A stretch of 19,160 bases of DNA from Candidatus Woesearchaeota archaeon. Lineage in GTDB: Archaea; Nanobdellota; Nanobdellia; Woesearchaeales; GW2011-AR4. Shown here in pieces: positions 79 to 4,284 of this stretch (its first letter is position 1; each line of letters opens with the position of its first letter). Under the pieces are notes generated by a model. That model saw only the letters and a program-made list of their open reading frames with translations. It had not been told where the DNA came from and did no database searches. A program made the position numbers and the translations under genes. The stretch is taken from contig DUHN01000006.1 of assembly GCA_013330825.1 (NCBI GenBank), positions 27,560 through 46,719 on the forward strand, read 5' to 3'.

Positions 79-717
79 ATGCAGCTTTCCGGACTTGAGG
101 CCAATCTTGGAAGGAAGAGCCTGCGCGATGAGCAATTGGTCCACGCCGCAATCTTCCAGCGGGATGTCGCATATCCCCTTGTGTTTCTCCAGGTACTCCC
201 AAGAGTCGGCGGCGGTTTCTACTGGGGATTTCCCCATGCCGACATCGTTAACTGGGGGGAGCCGGAACCCGCTGCGCTTAGGAGGGCGATCACCGACAAT
301 GTCTTCCCTTCGACGTTCACCATCTTACCGCGGCTATCCTATGAACGCACCACTATAGAGGACAATGGGTATCTCATCATCACCCATCGGGCTTATGCCA
401 TCATCGCACATCCCGGACAGAACATAGAGGCAGGCCCTGCAATACACAACAGAAGGCCTCATGAATGGGTTCCCTTCCACGAAGCCAGAGGACGGCTCAT
501 CAACGGGGAACAGCTGGAGCTATTCGATGGCATCATTGGCAGGGCGCGGGAAAAAGGCATCCTCCCAACGGCTAAACTATACGATTTCCCCGGAGATAGG
601 GTTTATGCTCCAGAACACGAAGGGTTTTGCCTTCCAGGACCAATCATTGTATATTCTCCTTCTTCCAGAGCGTTAGCGCCTCTTCCTCCACAAAATGGAG
701 CTGGCCAGGGACGATGA
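79..717 (+). CDS. Nudix-like protein with degenerate Nudix box
   Basis: A 212-residue protein, starting at the ATG 27 bases after a TATA box (an ATG at 55 would add eight residues). Residues 42-75 follow the Nudix layout: a Gly-rich turn, W-x-F-P, then E-x7-R, and a later segment near 129-155 (HEWVPF and the following helix) resembles the usual Nudix C-terminal part. The metal-binding acids of the box REUxEE are not conserved: the equivalent residues read RAITDN, and the usual FPGG is FPHA. I infer a Nudix-fold protein that is either catalytically inactive or uses other ligands. Residues after about 180 are low-complexity and Pro/Ala-rich. The last 74 bases overlap the end of dph5 on the other strand, which is a long convergent overlap. 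Substrate unknown; alternatively an unrelated fold with chance resemblance. Confidence 0.65.
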   Translation: MQLSGLEANLGRKSLRDEQLVHAAIFQRDVAYPLVFLQVLPRVGGGFYWGFPHADIVNWGEPEPAALRRAITDNVFPSTFTILPRLSYERTTIEDNGYLIITHRAYAIIAHPGQNIEAGPAIHNRRPHEWVPFHEARGRLINGEQLELFDGIIGRAREKGILPTAKLYDFPGDRVYAPEHEGFCLPGPIIVYSPSSRALAPLPPQNGAGQGR

Positions 718-1414
718 GGCAGTGCACGGGCTTGCCGAAGTCCGCTTTCAGGAGCTGGGAGGCGGAGCCGGCCTTGATGATCGGGTCTTTTGCCCCGAGC
801 CGGGCGCAGCCGACGCATAAGGTGGAATCCTTGAATCCGCCGTCCCCTTTCCGCAGCGCTGCCCTGAGGAGGTAGCGGATGGCATCGCCAACCGTCATGT
901 ACCTGCCTTCGATGGGATCGAGGTCCAGCAGGAACAGCGTATGCATGCCCATCTTCCTGTTCTCCTTCATGGCCTCATAAGGGGAATCCACCTGCTCGTT
1001 GCTGAACGGGATGCTCGTGGTCTTGCCGAACTTGTAGACCTGCAGCCCGGTGACGCCAACTGCCGAGATGACGGAGGCGTTGTGGATAATGCGGCACGCG
1101 ATGCCCGCTTTCCGCGCCCTCAGGTAGAGATCGACATGGGTGGTGGCGCAGAACGGGTCGCCGATGACCAGAAAAGCCGTATCCTTCTCCGCCGCGTCCT
1201 TCAGGATGGTGGCCTCGGCGTCCTGCTCAACCAAGGCGCGGGTGGCCAAGATGACTCTCTTGCCATAGAATTTCTCCAAATCCTGCTTGGCGCAGTTGAG
1301 GACAGATGTGTAGTGCTCAAGATACACCGCTCCGCATCTTTCTACGGCCTCCAGCCCTTTGACAGAGATGTCTTTTTCATCACTGAGGCCCAATCCGATG
1401 AAGTAGAGCGTCAT
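644..1414 (-). CDS. dph5: Diphthine synthase (S-adenosylmethionine-dependent)
   Basis: A 256-residue protein, the usual length for archaeal DphB/Dph5. It methylates the 3-amino-3-carboxypropyl group on a histidine of elongation factor 2 in diphthamide synthesis, acting in the cytosol with S-adenosylmethionine as donor. Visible family marks are the N-terminal MTLYFIGLGL segment, the VIGDPFCATTH region (residues about 83-93) which is the classical SAM-binding stretch, and HNASVISAVGVTGLQVYKFG (about 111-130). The start at 1414 sits 25 bases after a TATA box (1434-1443). The end overlaps the Nudix-like gene by 74 bases tail to tail. Upstream it is divergent from the PEP/pyruvate-binding gene. 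Diphthamide is absent from bacteria, so this gene is one of the best archaeal markers in the window. Confidence 0.95.
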   Translation of the reverse strand: MTLYFIGLGLSDEKDISVKGLEAVERCGAVYLEHYTSVLNCAKQDLEKFYGKRVILATRALVEQDAEATILKDAAEKDTAFLVIGDPFCATTHVDLYLRARKAGIACRIIHNASVISAVGVTGLQVYKFGKTTSIPFSNEQVDSPYEAMKENRKMGMHTLFLLDLDPIEGRYMTVGDAIRYLLRAALRKGDGGFKDSTLCVGCARLGAKDPIIKAGSASQLLKADFGKPVHCLIVPGQLHFVEEEALTLWKKENIQ

Positions 1415-1526: not shown

Positions 1527-2825
1527 ATGCAAAACGCTTTTCGCCAAGAAGGACTATGGATATTGCCTCATGAAGGGACGATGGGCAACAAGGCCCGGAA
1601 TCTCTATGCCAACACCCCAGCCATCCTTTCCACTGGGTTCTTTGTGCCCAAATCACTGGTTGTTCCTTCTGAATACCTTTCTGAGGCAAAGAACAAGCCG
1701 GAAGTCGTCTGGAAAACCATCGATGGTTATTTTCCAGGCTGGAGAAGGATGGTGGTCCGCTCCAATGCCCCTGATGAGGACGCAGGCAACAGATGTCCTG
1801 GCCTGTACGAATCAGTGGATGTGTGGCATGAAGACGCCGATTATGGGAAAGGGCTCATCGAGAAGGTTCTCCATTCTTACAACAAGCAGAGTGCCCAGTT
1901 ACGGAGGAAAGCCCTTGGCTTGCCGGAGATCGGGATGGGTTTGCTTGTCCAAGAGCCGGTGAGCGAAGATATTGATAATTTCAAAGTCCCTTATTCAGGC
2001 TGCTTCAGCCAGATCGGGGAAAAGTCCCTTCTGACGTTTATCTCGGACATGAAAGGCCACCAGCTTGATTCCATGAAATACTCGCCAGACAGCCTTCATT
2101 ATGTTGATGAATCGGGAAAAATAACCGGAACAGCTCAGCCTCATCAGCACGATCTTGCCTGCCGCCTTCATCAGCTGGCGAATGCGCTTCCACGCCAAGA
2201 AGGAAAGGGTTGGGAACTGGAGTTCGTGGCCAAAAAAGATAAGGAAGTGTATGTCGTCCAGACAACGCCCATTGTGCGCTCCCCTCCCCTCGTGATGCCG
2301 GATAACTTAGATAACCTCTTCAGGGCCAAGGAATTCGTAGGCATAAGGGAAAAGCGCACCCAGGGAATTCTTATTGCCCCCTTCCTCGGTGGGTGCGATG
2401 CCCTTTCTCGTATTACTTCTCATTTGGTCAATTTTGACGTCCACCATAAGGATTATTGCCTGATAACAAACCATCTTAACATTGCCAGATCAGACCGCAC
2501 TACCAACATCCTGGAATACCTGAAAAATGCGGCAGTGATTCTAGACATCGGAGGAGGAATGAGAGCTACTGATGAGCATTACGCTCCGCACGTGATGCAG
2601 TTCATGAGGGGGGGGAGAGTAGCTATGGAAGGCCACTTTATGCACAAGATGTTTCCCACCGCGCGCACATTAGACCCAGATATGTATCTGGACGAGAAAC
2701 GTTTGAGGGGAATTCAGTATTCTCCGGCCCAATTGTATGTGAGCGTAGATGAAATTAACCGTAAAGGAATCGTTTCCTTGGTCGATCAAAATCCGGTTAC
2801 TTTCGGTTTTGTCCCAATAAAATAA
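1527..2825 (+). CDS. PEP/pyruvate-binding (PpsA/PPDK-like) domain protein
   Basis: A 432-residue protein recognisable as a member of the PEP synthase/pyruvate phosphate dikinase N-terminal (ATP-grasp) group. Residues 76-96 read VVRSNAPDEDAGNRCPGLYES, matching the family's RSS-x-x-x-E-D...G-x-y-e-S stretch. Residues 230-249 match the D/E-I/L-E-W...D-x-x-x-Y/V-x-Q-x-x-P-I signature that closes the nucleotide-binding domain. Residues 337-367 contain a GGG turn followed by HYAPHVM and may be a diverged swivelling phospho-histidine domain (normally GG-x-T-x-H-A-A-I); this is weaker. No C-terminal PEP-binding TIM barrel is present; PEP synthases are near 800 residues. It is therefore not a complete PEP synthase, and its reaction (perhaps phosphotransfer to another substrate) is unknown. 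Start chosen from the TATA spacing. It is a single-gene unit followed by AT-rich sequence. Confidence 0.75.
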   Translation: MQNAFRQEGLWILPHEGTMGNKARNLYANTPAILSTGFFVPKSLVVPSEYLSEAKNKPEVVWKTIDGYFPGWRRMVVRSNAPDEDAGNRCPGLYESVDVWHEDADYGKGLIEKVLHSYNKQSAQLRRKALGLPEIGMGLLVQEPVSEDIDNFKVPYSGCFSQIGEKSLLTFISDMKGHQLDSMKYSPDSLHYVDESGKITGTAQPHQHDLACRLHQLANALPRQEGKGWELEFVAKKDKEVYVVQTTPIVRSPPLVMPDNLDNLFRAKEFVGIREKRTQGILIAPFLGGCDALSRITSHLVNFDVHHKDYCLITNHLNIARSDRTTNILEYLKNAAVILDIGGGMRATDEHYAPHVMQFMRGGRVAMEGHFMHKMFPTARTLDPDMYLDEKRLRGIQYSPAQLYVSVDEINRKGIVSLVDQNPVTFGFVPIK

Positions 2826-2936
2826 GTGGAATTTCTACATTTATATACTAAAATCTATACTTAACACCAAAGAAATCTTTATAAATCTACTGAACACCTC
2901 AGATTTAAAAAGGATAACATAAGAACTGCTAAAATT

Positions 2937-3076
2937 GAGTTTTTTTGGCGAAAAACTCGATTGGTTCAGGCGATTTTTGGCGAAATCGGCTGAAAACAGT
3001 GTTTTTGGCGAACAACAGTTTTTTGGTAATCGGCAAACTGTCAAACGGTTACTGTGTTCGTTTTGGCGAAACGAAC
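2937..3076 (+). promoter_or_regulatory. Five-hairpin array with repeated TTTTGGCGAA motif
   Basis: The 10-mer ttttggcgaa occurs exactly four times, starting at 2943, 2975, 3003 and 3061. Each copy sits in a hairpin whose loop contains TTGGCG or TGGCG but whose stem sequence differs. H1 pairs 2937-2944 with 2951-2958 (8 bp). H2 pairs 2971-2976 with 2983-2988 (6 bp). H3 pairs 3000-3003 with 3011-3014 (4 bp, weak). H5 pairs 3056-3063 with 3069-3076 (8 bp). H4 (3015-3021 with 3035-3041, 7 bp) has an interrupted loop that begins TTTGG and ends CGGC. Conserved loops with compensating stem changes suggest selection on folded RNA or DNA. The position just before ftsZ suggests control of ftsZ, either as an operator array or as an RNA leader. 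Confidence 0.6.
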
Positions 3077-3112
3077 TGGCGATTTCTAAGGTAGGAATAC
3101 CTATGAACTTCA

Positions 3113-3119
3113 ATATAAA
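3113..3119 (+). promoter_or_regulatory. Probable proximal TATA box of ftsZ
   Basis: The sequence atataaa predicts a transcript start near 3142, giving ftsZ a leader of about 60 bases, unlike the leaderless arrangement of most neighbours. The hairpin array ends 36 bases upstream of it. Confidence 0.4.
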
Positions 3120-3204
3120 CATTTCGGTACTCTAATGGGTATGTTGAAGTCAGGTGTTTCAAAAAAGACCACAAAGCACACACCTACGGGAGACGGGGGA
3201 GACC

Positions 3205-4284
3205 ATGGAGTTTTTGGTGAATACGGCGCTGCAGCAAGAGGCAGCAATGCAGAAAGGGAGCGACGATGATCTGATCGGAAGCGCCAAGATCCGCGTGATA
3301 GGGTGCGGCGGCTCAGGCAACAACATGGTTGGCTGGCTGTACAAGAAGGGCGTGAAAGGAGCAGAGATTCTCGCGTGCAACACCGACAAGCAGCACCTCA
3401 ACATGATTGAGGCGGACAAGAAGTTCCTTATCGGCAAAGGTGTCACCAGAGGACTGGGCTGCGGCGGCTTCCCTGAAAAGGGAGCGGAGTCCGCGAAGGA
3501 GAGCATCCAGGACCTGAAGGAGCATCTCAAAGGGTCGGACATGGTCTTCGTGTGCGCGGGCATGGGCGGCGGCACCGGCACCGGAAGCGCCCCCATCGTG
3601 GCGCAGGTGGCCAAGGACACCGGCTCCATCGTGATCGGCACGGTCACCATGCCGTTCAAGATCGAACGGGCCAGGATCGACAAGGCCGAGTTCGGGCTCC
3701 AGCAGCTGCGCAAGGTGGCTGACACCGTGATTGTCATCGACAACAACAGGCTCGTGCAGATCGCAGGCAACCTGCCCATCCAGCAGGCCTTCGCGGTGGC
3801 GAACGAGCTCGTCGCGACCATGATCAAGGGCATCGTGGAGACCATCTCGGTCCCGAGCCTCGTCAACCTCGACTATGCGGACGTCAAGGCCATCATGTCC
3901 AACGGCGGTGTCGCGGTGATTGGCGTCGGAAGCTCTGACACCAACAACCGGGTTGAGGAATCCGTCAAGGGCGCGCTGATGAACCCCCTCCTCGAGGTCG
4001 ATTATCACGGGGCAACGGGCGCATTGATCCACGTGATCGGCGGCCCGGACATGACGCTGGACGACATCAACCGCGTGGGAGAACTGGTGACGGAAAGCCT
4101 TGATGATGACGCGAACGTCATCTGGGGAGCGCGCGTGGACGAGGGCATGAAAGGCAGGATCACCGTGATGACCATCATCACCGGCGTCAAATCGCCCTGG
4201 ATACTCGGCAAGCCCATGCAGTATGAGCGCAAGAGCCCGCAGGCAGTCGCCGTGACGGAAGAGCTTGGCTTGGAACTGGTGTAG
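3205..4284 (+). CDS. ftsZ: Cell division GTPase FtsZ
   Basis: A 359-residue tubulin-family GTPase that polymerises into the division ring at mid-cell. Signatures are the N-terminal IRVIGCGGSGNNMV nucleotide-binding turn (about residues 29-42), the tubulin signature GGGTGTG at 121-127, and the T7-loop region NLDYADVKAIMSNGG (about 228-242) which supplies the catalytic acids to the neighbouring subunit. Start chosen at the ATG of MEFLV because family members begin this close to the GTPase core and a purine-rich GGGGGAG lies just upstream; the frame stays open back to 3148 and a GTG at 3154 would add 17 residues. The gene is markedly GC-richer than the region before it. A structured 3' region and strong terminator follow. 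Regulation is probably through the hairpin array at 2937-3076. Confidence 0.97.
   Translation: MEFLVNTALQQEAAMQKGSDDDLIGSAKIRVIGCGGSGNNMVGWLYKKGVKGAEILACNTDKQHLNMIEADKKFLIGKGVTRGLGCGGFPEKGAESAKESIQDLKEHLKGSDMVFVCAGMGGGTGTGSAPIVAQVAKDTGSIVIGTVTMPFKIERARIDKAEFGLQQLRKVADTVIVIDNNRLVQIAGNLPIQQAFAVANELVATMIKGIVETISVPSLVNLDYADVKAIMSNGGVAVIGVGSSDTNNRVEESVKGALMNPLLEVDYHGATGALIHVIGGPDMTLDDINRVGELVTESLDDDANVIWGARVDEGMKGRITVMTIITGVKSPWILGKPMQYERKSPQAVAVTEELGLELV

Follow-up and report, generated by a model that had tools for sequence, protein, structure and literature searches.

Tandem hairpins with a fixed UUGGCG loop upstream of ftsZ in DPANN archaea suggest a cis-encoded sense/antisense RNA pair

Directly before an ftsZ gene of a Woesearchaeota archaeon we found a tandem array of hairpins that share the loop UUGGCG but differ in their stems, flanked on either side by promoter-like sites in convergent orientation. 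Such arrays, with a fixed TTGGCG loop on unrelated self-complementary stems, are widespread before ftsZ in the order of this archaeon and extend to further orders within its class. As judged from sequence, the array is probably part of a chromosomal sense/antisense RNA pair, encoded in cis, in which kissing loops control ftsZ. By the window we mean the whole stretch of 19,160 nucleotides that was analyzed, a part of contig C66 of our genome G000 (an assembly of 1.157 Mb in 83 contigs). Its relevant features are the following.

644-1414, minus strand: dph5 (diphthine synthase, TIGR00522), upstream of the array
1527-2825: gene of 432 amino acids without NCBIfam match, between dph5 and the array
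2872-2885, plus strand: P+, BRE/TATA-like box GAAATCTTTATAAA with one mismatch, TATA box at 2878-2885; predicted ftsZ promoter
2906-3087, minus strand: predicted antisense RNA of about 180 nt, start AGAAAUCGCC at 3087, putative end near the U-run opposite AAAAA at 2907-2911
2933-2962, plus strand: hairpin 1, 12-nt arms (92% complementary), loop UUGGCG at 2945-2950 (CGCCAA on the minus strand)
2965-2994, plus strand: hairpin 2, 11 pairs and one G.G mismatch, loop UUGGCG at 2977-2982
3000-3014, plus strand: hairpin 3, weak, 4 bp, 7-nt loop UUUGGCG at 3004-3010; read from the sequence
3015-3041, plus strand: variant hairpin, 7 bp, 13-nt loop holding UUUGG; read from the sequence
3056-3076, plus strand: hairpin 5, 7 bp with loop UUGGCGA (3063-3069), or 8 bp with TGGCG
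3112-3125, minus strand: P-, BRE/TATA-like box GAAATGTTTATATT with one mismatch, between the array and ftsZ, facing P+
3205-4284, plus strand: ftsZ, probable ATG at 3205 preceded by GGGGG at 3195-3199; longest frame from GTG at 3154

An earlier note on this DNA had drawn attention to four exact copies of the decamer TTTTGGCGAA, spaced by 28, 32 and 58 bases. The four copies are indeed present on the plus strand, starting at 2943, 2975, 3003 and 3061, with the same three distances in the order 32, 28 and 58. They span 2943-3070, i.e. 135 to 262 bases 5' of the probable ATG, and all of them lie in hairpins. The described combination of differing, self-complementary stems with a conserved (T)TGGCG loop was borne out, the third hairpin being weak with its 4 bp, and the variant hairpin was recovered as well. 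Folding of 2925-3210 gave a better energy than 200 out of 200 shuffles (z -3.8). Hairpin 3 is absent from the predicted folds of both the sense and the antisense RNA, while the variant hairpin is present in the antisense fold and absent in the sense fold.

A scan of the whole assembly for TTTTGGCGAA, as the note had proposed, returned eight exact copies on both strands, four of them within the array and the other four without a TTGGCG hairpin (contiguous stems of 2-3 bp). Allowing up to two mismatches, 22 occurrences were found in the window where 21.6 were expected; given this lack of enrichment, the signal consists of the exact motif together with its stems. The ftsZ frame from 3154 matches TIGR00065 with 388.9 bits. 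Three ftsZ copies occur in the assembly, and no TTGGCG hairpin was found upstream of the other two (77% and 50% identical), so that the window copy is the only one with an array. When the region 2400-3700 was compared to Rfam 15 (E<=5), two weak matches were obtained, both outside the array; in seven relatives (E<=1) the arrays gave none, and the sole match was an archaeal SRP RNA gene (RF01857, 121 bits) located upstream of the ftsZ array on the minus strand in L118:1886-2156.

A set of 80 named ftsZ loci, overlapping with a set of 59 genomes, was searched for TTRGYR hairpins with 5 bp or more. Most of these loci are labelled Woesearchaeota or Nanoarchaeota, which places the source of the window among the DPANN archaea. 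Such a hairpin was found in 56 and missing in 24, three of the latter having upstream stretches shorter than 250 nt. For the 59 genomes, 50 upstream regions were collected from the copies taken as counterparts of the window ftsZ (one genome is represented twice and one stretch is only 186 nt long); exact TTGGCG hairpins with 4 bp or more were identified in 39 and lacking in 11, while TTRGCG hairpins occur in 40. None of the 20 other ftsZ copies had a TTGGCG hairpin, although a weak 4-bp TTGGTG hairpin was seen once, and a general feature of ftsZ genes was consequently rejected as an explanation.

A chance repeat was rejected as well, based on several counts. Pairs of the exact decamer 15-45 bases apart were found in 31 of the 59 genomes and the reversed control pattern in none. 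At -400 to -60 of the 80 loci we counted 132 six-base-loop hairpins with at least six Watson-Crick pairs, of which 77, distributed over 45 loci, have the loop TTGGCG; among 266 such hairpins elsewhere in about 506 kb, read in the direction of ftsZ, this loop is absent. It is borne by thirty different 5-bp stems in the 80 loci. Between -400 and -100, TTGGCG occurs 158 times on the sense and once on the antisense strand, and 111 of these 158 sites are flanked by a stem of at least 4 bp, compared to 6 of 201 sites elsewhere.

A covariance model of a single hairpin (R1), built from sites picked for long stems, matched 41 of the 59 genomes at E<=0.5 and, under strict filters at E<=0.1, 71 out of 279 genomes in a sample of the phylum, thereby reaching other orders of the class. 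There was no match in the one-contig genome G044 or the three-contig genome G053. The best matches in the phylum sample correspond to 30 loci, of which 20 were new (L219-L238), and all 20 have ftsZ downstream on the same strand. Together with the 56 named loci this substantiates the link to ftsZ, and the loops proved to be conserved, though not universally, upstream of ftsZ in relatives, as the note had asked to be checked. Six R1 matches in the 59 genomes lie outside ftsZ (L240-L245); they are single hairpins or none, without arrays, and one is leader-like. In L244:860-879 (G045:C2), a 20-nt hairpin, CTTTGTT-TTGGCG-AACAAAG, is identical to one in the ftsZ array of the same genome (L071, G045:C8) and is part of a leader that precedes a small gene with no Pfam match, possibly a trans target of the antisense RNA. 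Only one copy of this hairpin was found in the congeneric G185. Viral decoys were considered, and discarded: one 18-mer gave two matches on viral contigs, both being one and the same solitary hairpin next to a terminator-like repeat, with neither an array nor an ftsZ match, and a second 18-mer gave no match.

For the analysis of covariation, 151 entries (the 80 named loci, the 20 new loci, the window and the 50 upstream regions) were reduced to 87 array-bearing leaders by removing 29 duplicates as well as 35 entries that lacked a 5-bp TTRGCR hairpin. Sites were picked by position, either as the first TTGGCG in each leader having both promoter boxes with at most two mismatches (51 distinct sites) or as the last in the leader (65 distinct sites, none among the first set; hairpin 5 of the window is one of them). 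In the first sites 89.8% of the cells were paired, compared to 54.2% after shuffling, and the covariation was 0.841 versus 0.180, with no slid register exceeding 0.22; the corresponding values for the last sites were 70.4% versus 43.9% and 0.601 versus 0.172, with slid registers up to 0.18. These numbers derive from related leaders, mostly from metagenome assemblies, that were retained for carrying a hairpin, and the counts do not represent independent events. A measure of further pair types was not significant for the last sites (211 of 500 shuffles reached it). Over 215 unique sites, selected without any stem filter, pairs 1 to 6 were Watson-Crick in 72-82%, compared to shuffled means of 27-54%. 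The suggestion of selection on structure is thus well supported, with loops kept in relatives, strong base-pair covariation at the first sites and covariation at the last sites. Two to four TTGGCG sites were present in 74 out of 75 leaders. The proposal that the hairpins are spaced by near-multiples of helical turns found no support, since the spacing differs between relatives while loops and pairing are kept.

Promoter-like sites were searched with the box pattern RAAANNTTTAWATA, presumably reflecting the archaeal BRE/TATA consensus; both this pattern and the word AGAA (see below) were chosen after inspecting the leaders. P+ was found just outside the array in 80 of the 87 array-bearing leaders with at most two mismatches and in 72 with at most one, while the corresponding numbers for P- were 81 and 62. 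As an orientation control with at most one mismatch, a minus-strand box on the left occurred in 4 of 87 leaders and a plus-strand box on the right in one; mononucleotide shuffles of the right zone gave a box with at most one mismatch in about 2%, and with at most two in about 16%. AGAA is located 22-24 nt behind the P- TATA box in 71 out of 81 leaders (in the window from 3087, 24 nt behind), whereas the offsets from P+ to AGAA are scattered. Among the 20 other ftsZ copies the best plus-strand box is 64-320 nt away, and AGAA follows the best minus-strand box by 18-29 nt in two, once at 22. The earlier note had correctly placed a promoter just upstream of the array, but its TATA box near 2906 has to be moved to 2878-2885; a transcript from P+ would be expected to start near 2908-2912. 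It did not mention the promoter-like site on the minus strand.

As P- faces the ftsZ promoter, the array would be both the ftsZ leader, with UUGGCG loops, and an antisense RNA, with CGCCAA loops. The putative 3' end of the latter has a counterpart in most leaders, i.e. a minus-strand T-run of at least four within 40 nt of the outer hairpin was seen in 76 of 87, compared to 21 of 87 for A-runs as a control. Where both boxes are present (75 leaders), the two predicted RNAs would share a median of 139 nt (70-178). The start of the antisense RNA is situated a median of 117 nt (75-213) upstream of the ftsZ match, so the ribosome-binding site would not be covered. The median distance from P+ to ftsZ is 282 nt (80 leaders). 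An independent sense non-coding RNA that ends before a separate ftsZ promoter (P2) was dropped as a candidate, as the second TATA-like site reads as a minus-strand promoter.

Mismatches in the stems carry information on the folding strand, because selection on the sense RNA only would tolerate G.T but not A.C, which is G.U on the antisense strand. Isolated mismatches in the last-in-leader hairpins were A.C in 31 cases, G.T in three (19 + 3 distinct contexts) and other in 25, numbers that are inflated by the relatedness of the leaders. This excess indicates that the stem in question is better as antisense RNA, and a sense-only RNA is not favoured. No strand bias was seen in the first-in-leader hairpins (A.C 6, G.T 5, other 4), and with the loosest filter all sites together gave 28 A.C versus 12 G.T, again inflated by relatedness. 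The antisense fold thus looks to have been selected, at least at the 5' end of the antisense RNA, of which hairpin 5 is the predicted first hairpin in the window. Both strands fold better there than shuffles: the sense sequence 2910-3090 has a z of -3.7 and the antisense sequence 2906-3087 a z of -2.8, the latter being equalled by 3 of 200 shuffles. On both strands the arrays are poor in ATG, with 60 on the sense strand versus 213 expected and 60 on the antisense strand versus 150 expected, as in a leader barred from early translation start, the palindromic design coupling the two strands. The array part of the sense leader contains no ATG at all in 34 of 75 leaders. A leader peptide within the array found no support; no conserved one was detected there.

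UUGGCG fits the YUNR motif, and in the 75 standard leaders YTGG occurs 267 times on the sense and nine times on the antisense strand. Of the 24 named loci lacking a UUGGCG-type hairpin, nine have other YUGG motifs repeated on the sense strand, namely UGGACA in L160, L162, L167 and L168 (13 TGGAC in 582 nt) and UUGGU in L179, L182, L183, L184 and L187 (21 in 546 nt). YTGG is absent from the antisense strand in all nine. In eight of them a P- box with one to three mismatches is followed by AGAA at a distance of 22 or 24 nt, and in eight, L184 being the one without, at least one motif lies in a perfect 5-bp hairpin. Two further loci (L178 and L185) keep both promoter-like boxes, without AGAA at 20-26, and have TTGG confined to the antisense strand, as though the U-turn loop now belonged to the other RNA. 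No clear P- was found in L126, L142, L150 and L171, which have one GGTTTTGGCG motif close behind the plus-strand TATA box, followed by GC-rich sequence in L142 and L150.

Taken together, we infer the existence of two RNAs and a kissing of their loops. P+ would give rise to the ftsZ mRNA with a leader of about 290 nt, the first 150-180 nt of which would form the UUGGCG-loop hairpins, and P- (3125-3112) to an antisense RNA across the array with CGCCAA hairpin loops. Each sense loop would kiss its own antisense loop, with the U-turn of UUGG (YUNR) exposing its bases so that pairing is fast, and with the stems, which differ between hairpins, keeping every sense/antisense pair specific. Kissing at several loops would then alter the fate of the ftsZ leader by e.g. 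termination, decay of the duplex, refolding or translation. The pairing would most likely lower FtsZ output, the direction of control and the step at which it acts being presumptive. Such control would bear on how DPANN archaea, with their very small genomes, time division. A tentative and rather unlikely extension is that the system is, as in plasmids, a gene-dosage meter, in which an unstable antisense RNA proportional to the number of ftsZ loci would set FtsZ per chromosome copy or per cell volume and so tie division to chromosome number, whether through domestication of a plasmid copy-control unit or by reaching UUGGCG independently.

The target loop 5'-UUGGCG-3' is shared with the plasmid systems CopA/CopT of R1 (IncFII), Inc/repZ of ColIb-P9 and RNAI of IncB pMU720, and a 1998 paper by Asano reportedly has the 5'-rUUGGCG-3' motif of the ColIb-P9 target in its title. 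The antisense RNA of these plasmids is transcribed within the leader region, off the other strand. The archaeal array likewise has sense-leader hairpins with a UUGGCG (YUNR) loop and, at the level of sequence, an opposite-strand promoter-like site for a fully complementary RNA. Unlike the plasmid systems, it is found on an archaeal chromosome before ftsZ, not a replication initiator (rep), in two to four tandem loop copies, with TATA-type promoter-like sites and no Rfam match. The IncI, IncB and IncFII types couple a leader peptide to the controlled gene, whereas the array part of the archaeal leaders revealed no conserved peptide. In the antisense-induced attenuation of pT181 and pIP501 the RNAs pair far ahead of the start codon, as they would in the archaeal leader. 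In a 2013 study, reportedly by Takahashi and Lucks, loop-loop attenuator chimeras from pMU720, R1 and ColIb-P9, all with the six-base loop 5'-TTGGCG-3', were still orthogonal, and the loop alone therefore does not dictate orthogonality (PMC3753616), which fits the identical loops and differing stems of the archaeal array. The system of pT181 resembles the proposed pair in its kissing hairpin (PMC3753616) and pIP501 in its two loop pairs and U-turn (PMC4485353, PMC6562991), but no attenuator structure was identified in the archaeal leader. The two pIP501 sources state that the YUNR motif can form a U-turn and occurs in recognition loops of many sense/antisense systems (PMC4485353, PMC6562991), the loops of the txpA/RatA pair being without it (PMC6562991).

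Sponge RNAs of the CsrB/RsmZ type also have many hairpins sharing one loop motif, with GGA in the loops. In the window and in most leaders seen, the UGGACA loci excepted, the archaeal hairpins carry UUGGCG in place of GGA, and the array has convergent promoter-like sites and is tied to one gene; a motif in target leaders of the CsrB type amounts to the one leader-like site among the six fetched matches outside ftsZ. Control of haloarchaeal ftsZ2 by CdrS is another case of archaeal ftsZ regulation, but through a protein, not an RNA. In Prochlorococcus, a 72-nt RNA opposite ftsQ and ftsZ, Yfr28, is perfectly complementary to an ftsZ 5' UTR over its first 46 nt; it is bacterial, and the accessible text describes neither a repeated loop array nor facing archaeal promoters (PMC7368042). 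No earlier report of an antisense or noncoding RNA at archaeal ftsZ was encountered in the literature searched, the Weinberg 2017 survey and Asano and Mizobuchi 1998 falling outside its scope.

Several other explanations have to be weighed against the kissing-loop pair. Regulators that read a loop have precedents in CsrA with CsrB and Smaug with its recognition elements, and the UUGGCG hairpins, as ftsZ leader or as a separate RNA, could likewise bind a protein that recognizes the loop irrespective of the stem, which is what a fixed loop on free stems, in two to four TTGGCG sites in 74 of 75 leaders, and the near absence of the loop complement from the leaders (1 vs 158) would look like. We nevertheless regard such a protein as unlikely. 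It gives no reason for a minus-strand promoter-like site that points inward with a fixed start spacing, for the G.U pairs of antisense type or for the swap to other YUGG words in nine loci, and it would have few targets in trans, given six hairpin matches outside ftsZ in 59 genomes with one leader-like. The site for an RNA-binding regulator suggested in the earlier note meets the same objections. A very unlikely alternative is that the minus-strand RNA acts independently in trans, its CGCCAA loops pairing with other mRNAs and its proximity to ftsZ being incidental. The identical hairpin in a small gene's leader in G045 speaks for it, but its congener G185 yielded no second copy, and ftsZ lies downstream on the same strand in all 20 new loci fetched. 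P+ just outside the array also implies that the ftsZ leader carries the complement of the antisense RNA, which argues against a trans-acting RNA.

Transcriptional interference, in which transcription from P- would run into the ftsZ transcript so that ftsZ output depends on collisions, with the hairpins as terminators or pause sites, would agree with the two convergent promoter-like sites and their implied overlap; yet collision needs neither an invariant loop nor covarying stems, and we consider it highly improbable. The chance of a DNA operator or cruciform array bound by a DNA-binding protein, which the earlier note had also raised, appears close to negligible. An exact decamer repeated in the window is what would be expected of it, but the flanks vary freely among relatives while loop and pairing are kept, and recognition of duplex DNA by a protein does not depend on base pairing inside either strand, which led us to reject it.

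Should the kissing-loop pair prove real, it would be an undescribed layer of archaeal division control in several orders of one class, within the literature searched, and would place the UUGGCG kissing loop of plasmids on chromosomes of another domain, with two to four loops per leader. The dozens of natural loop/stem pairs would also constitute a set for the study of antisense specificity despite identical loops.

The contigs carrying the arrays of G049:C101, G014:C2, G029:C23 and G037:C13 stop no more than about 220 nt past the array, and in some relatives an apparent start of dph5, as read from the sequences, is found directly before it.
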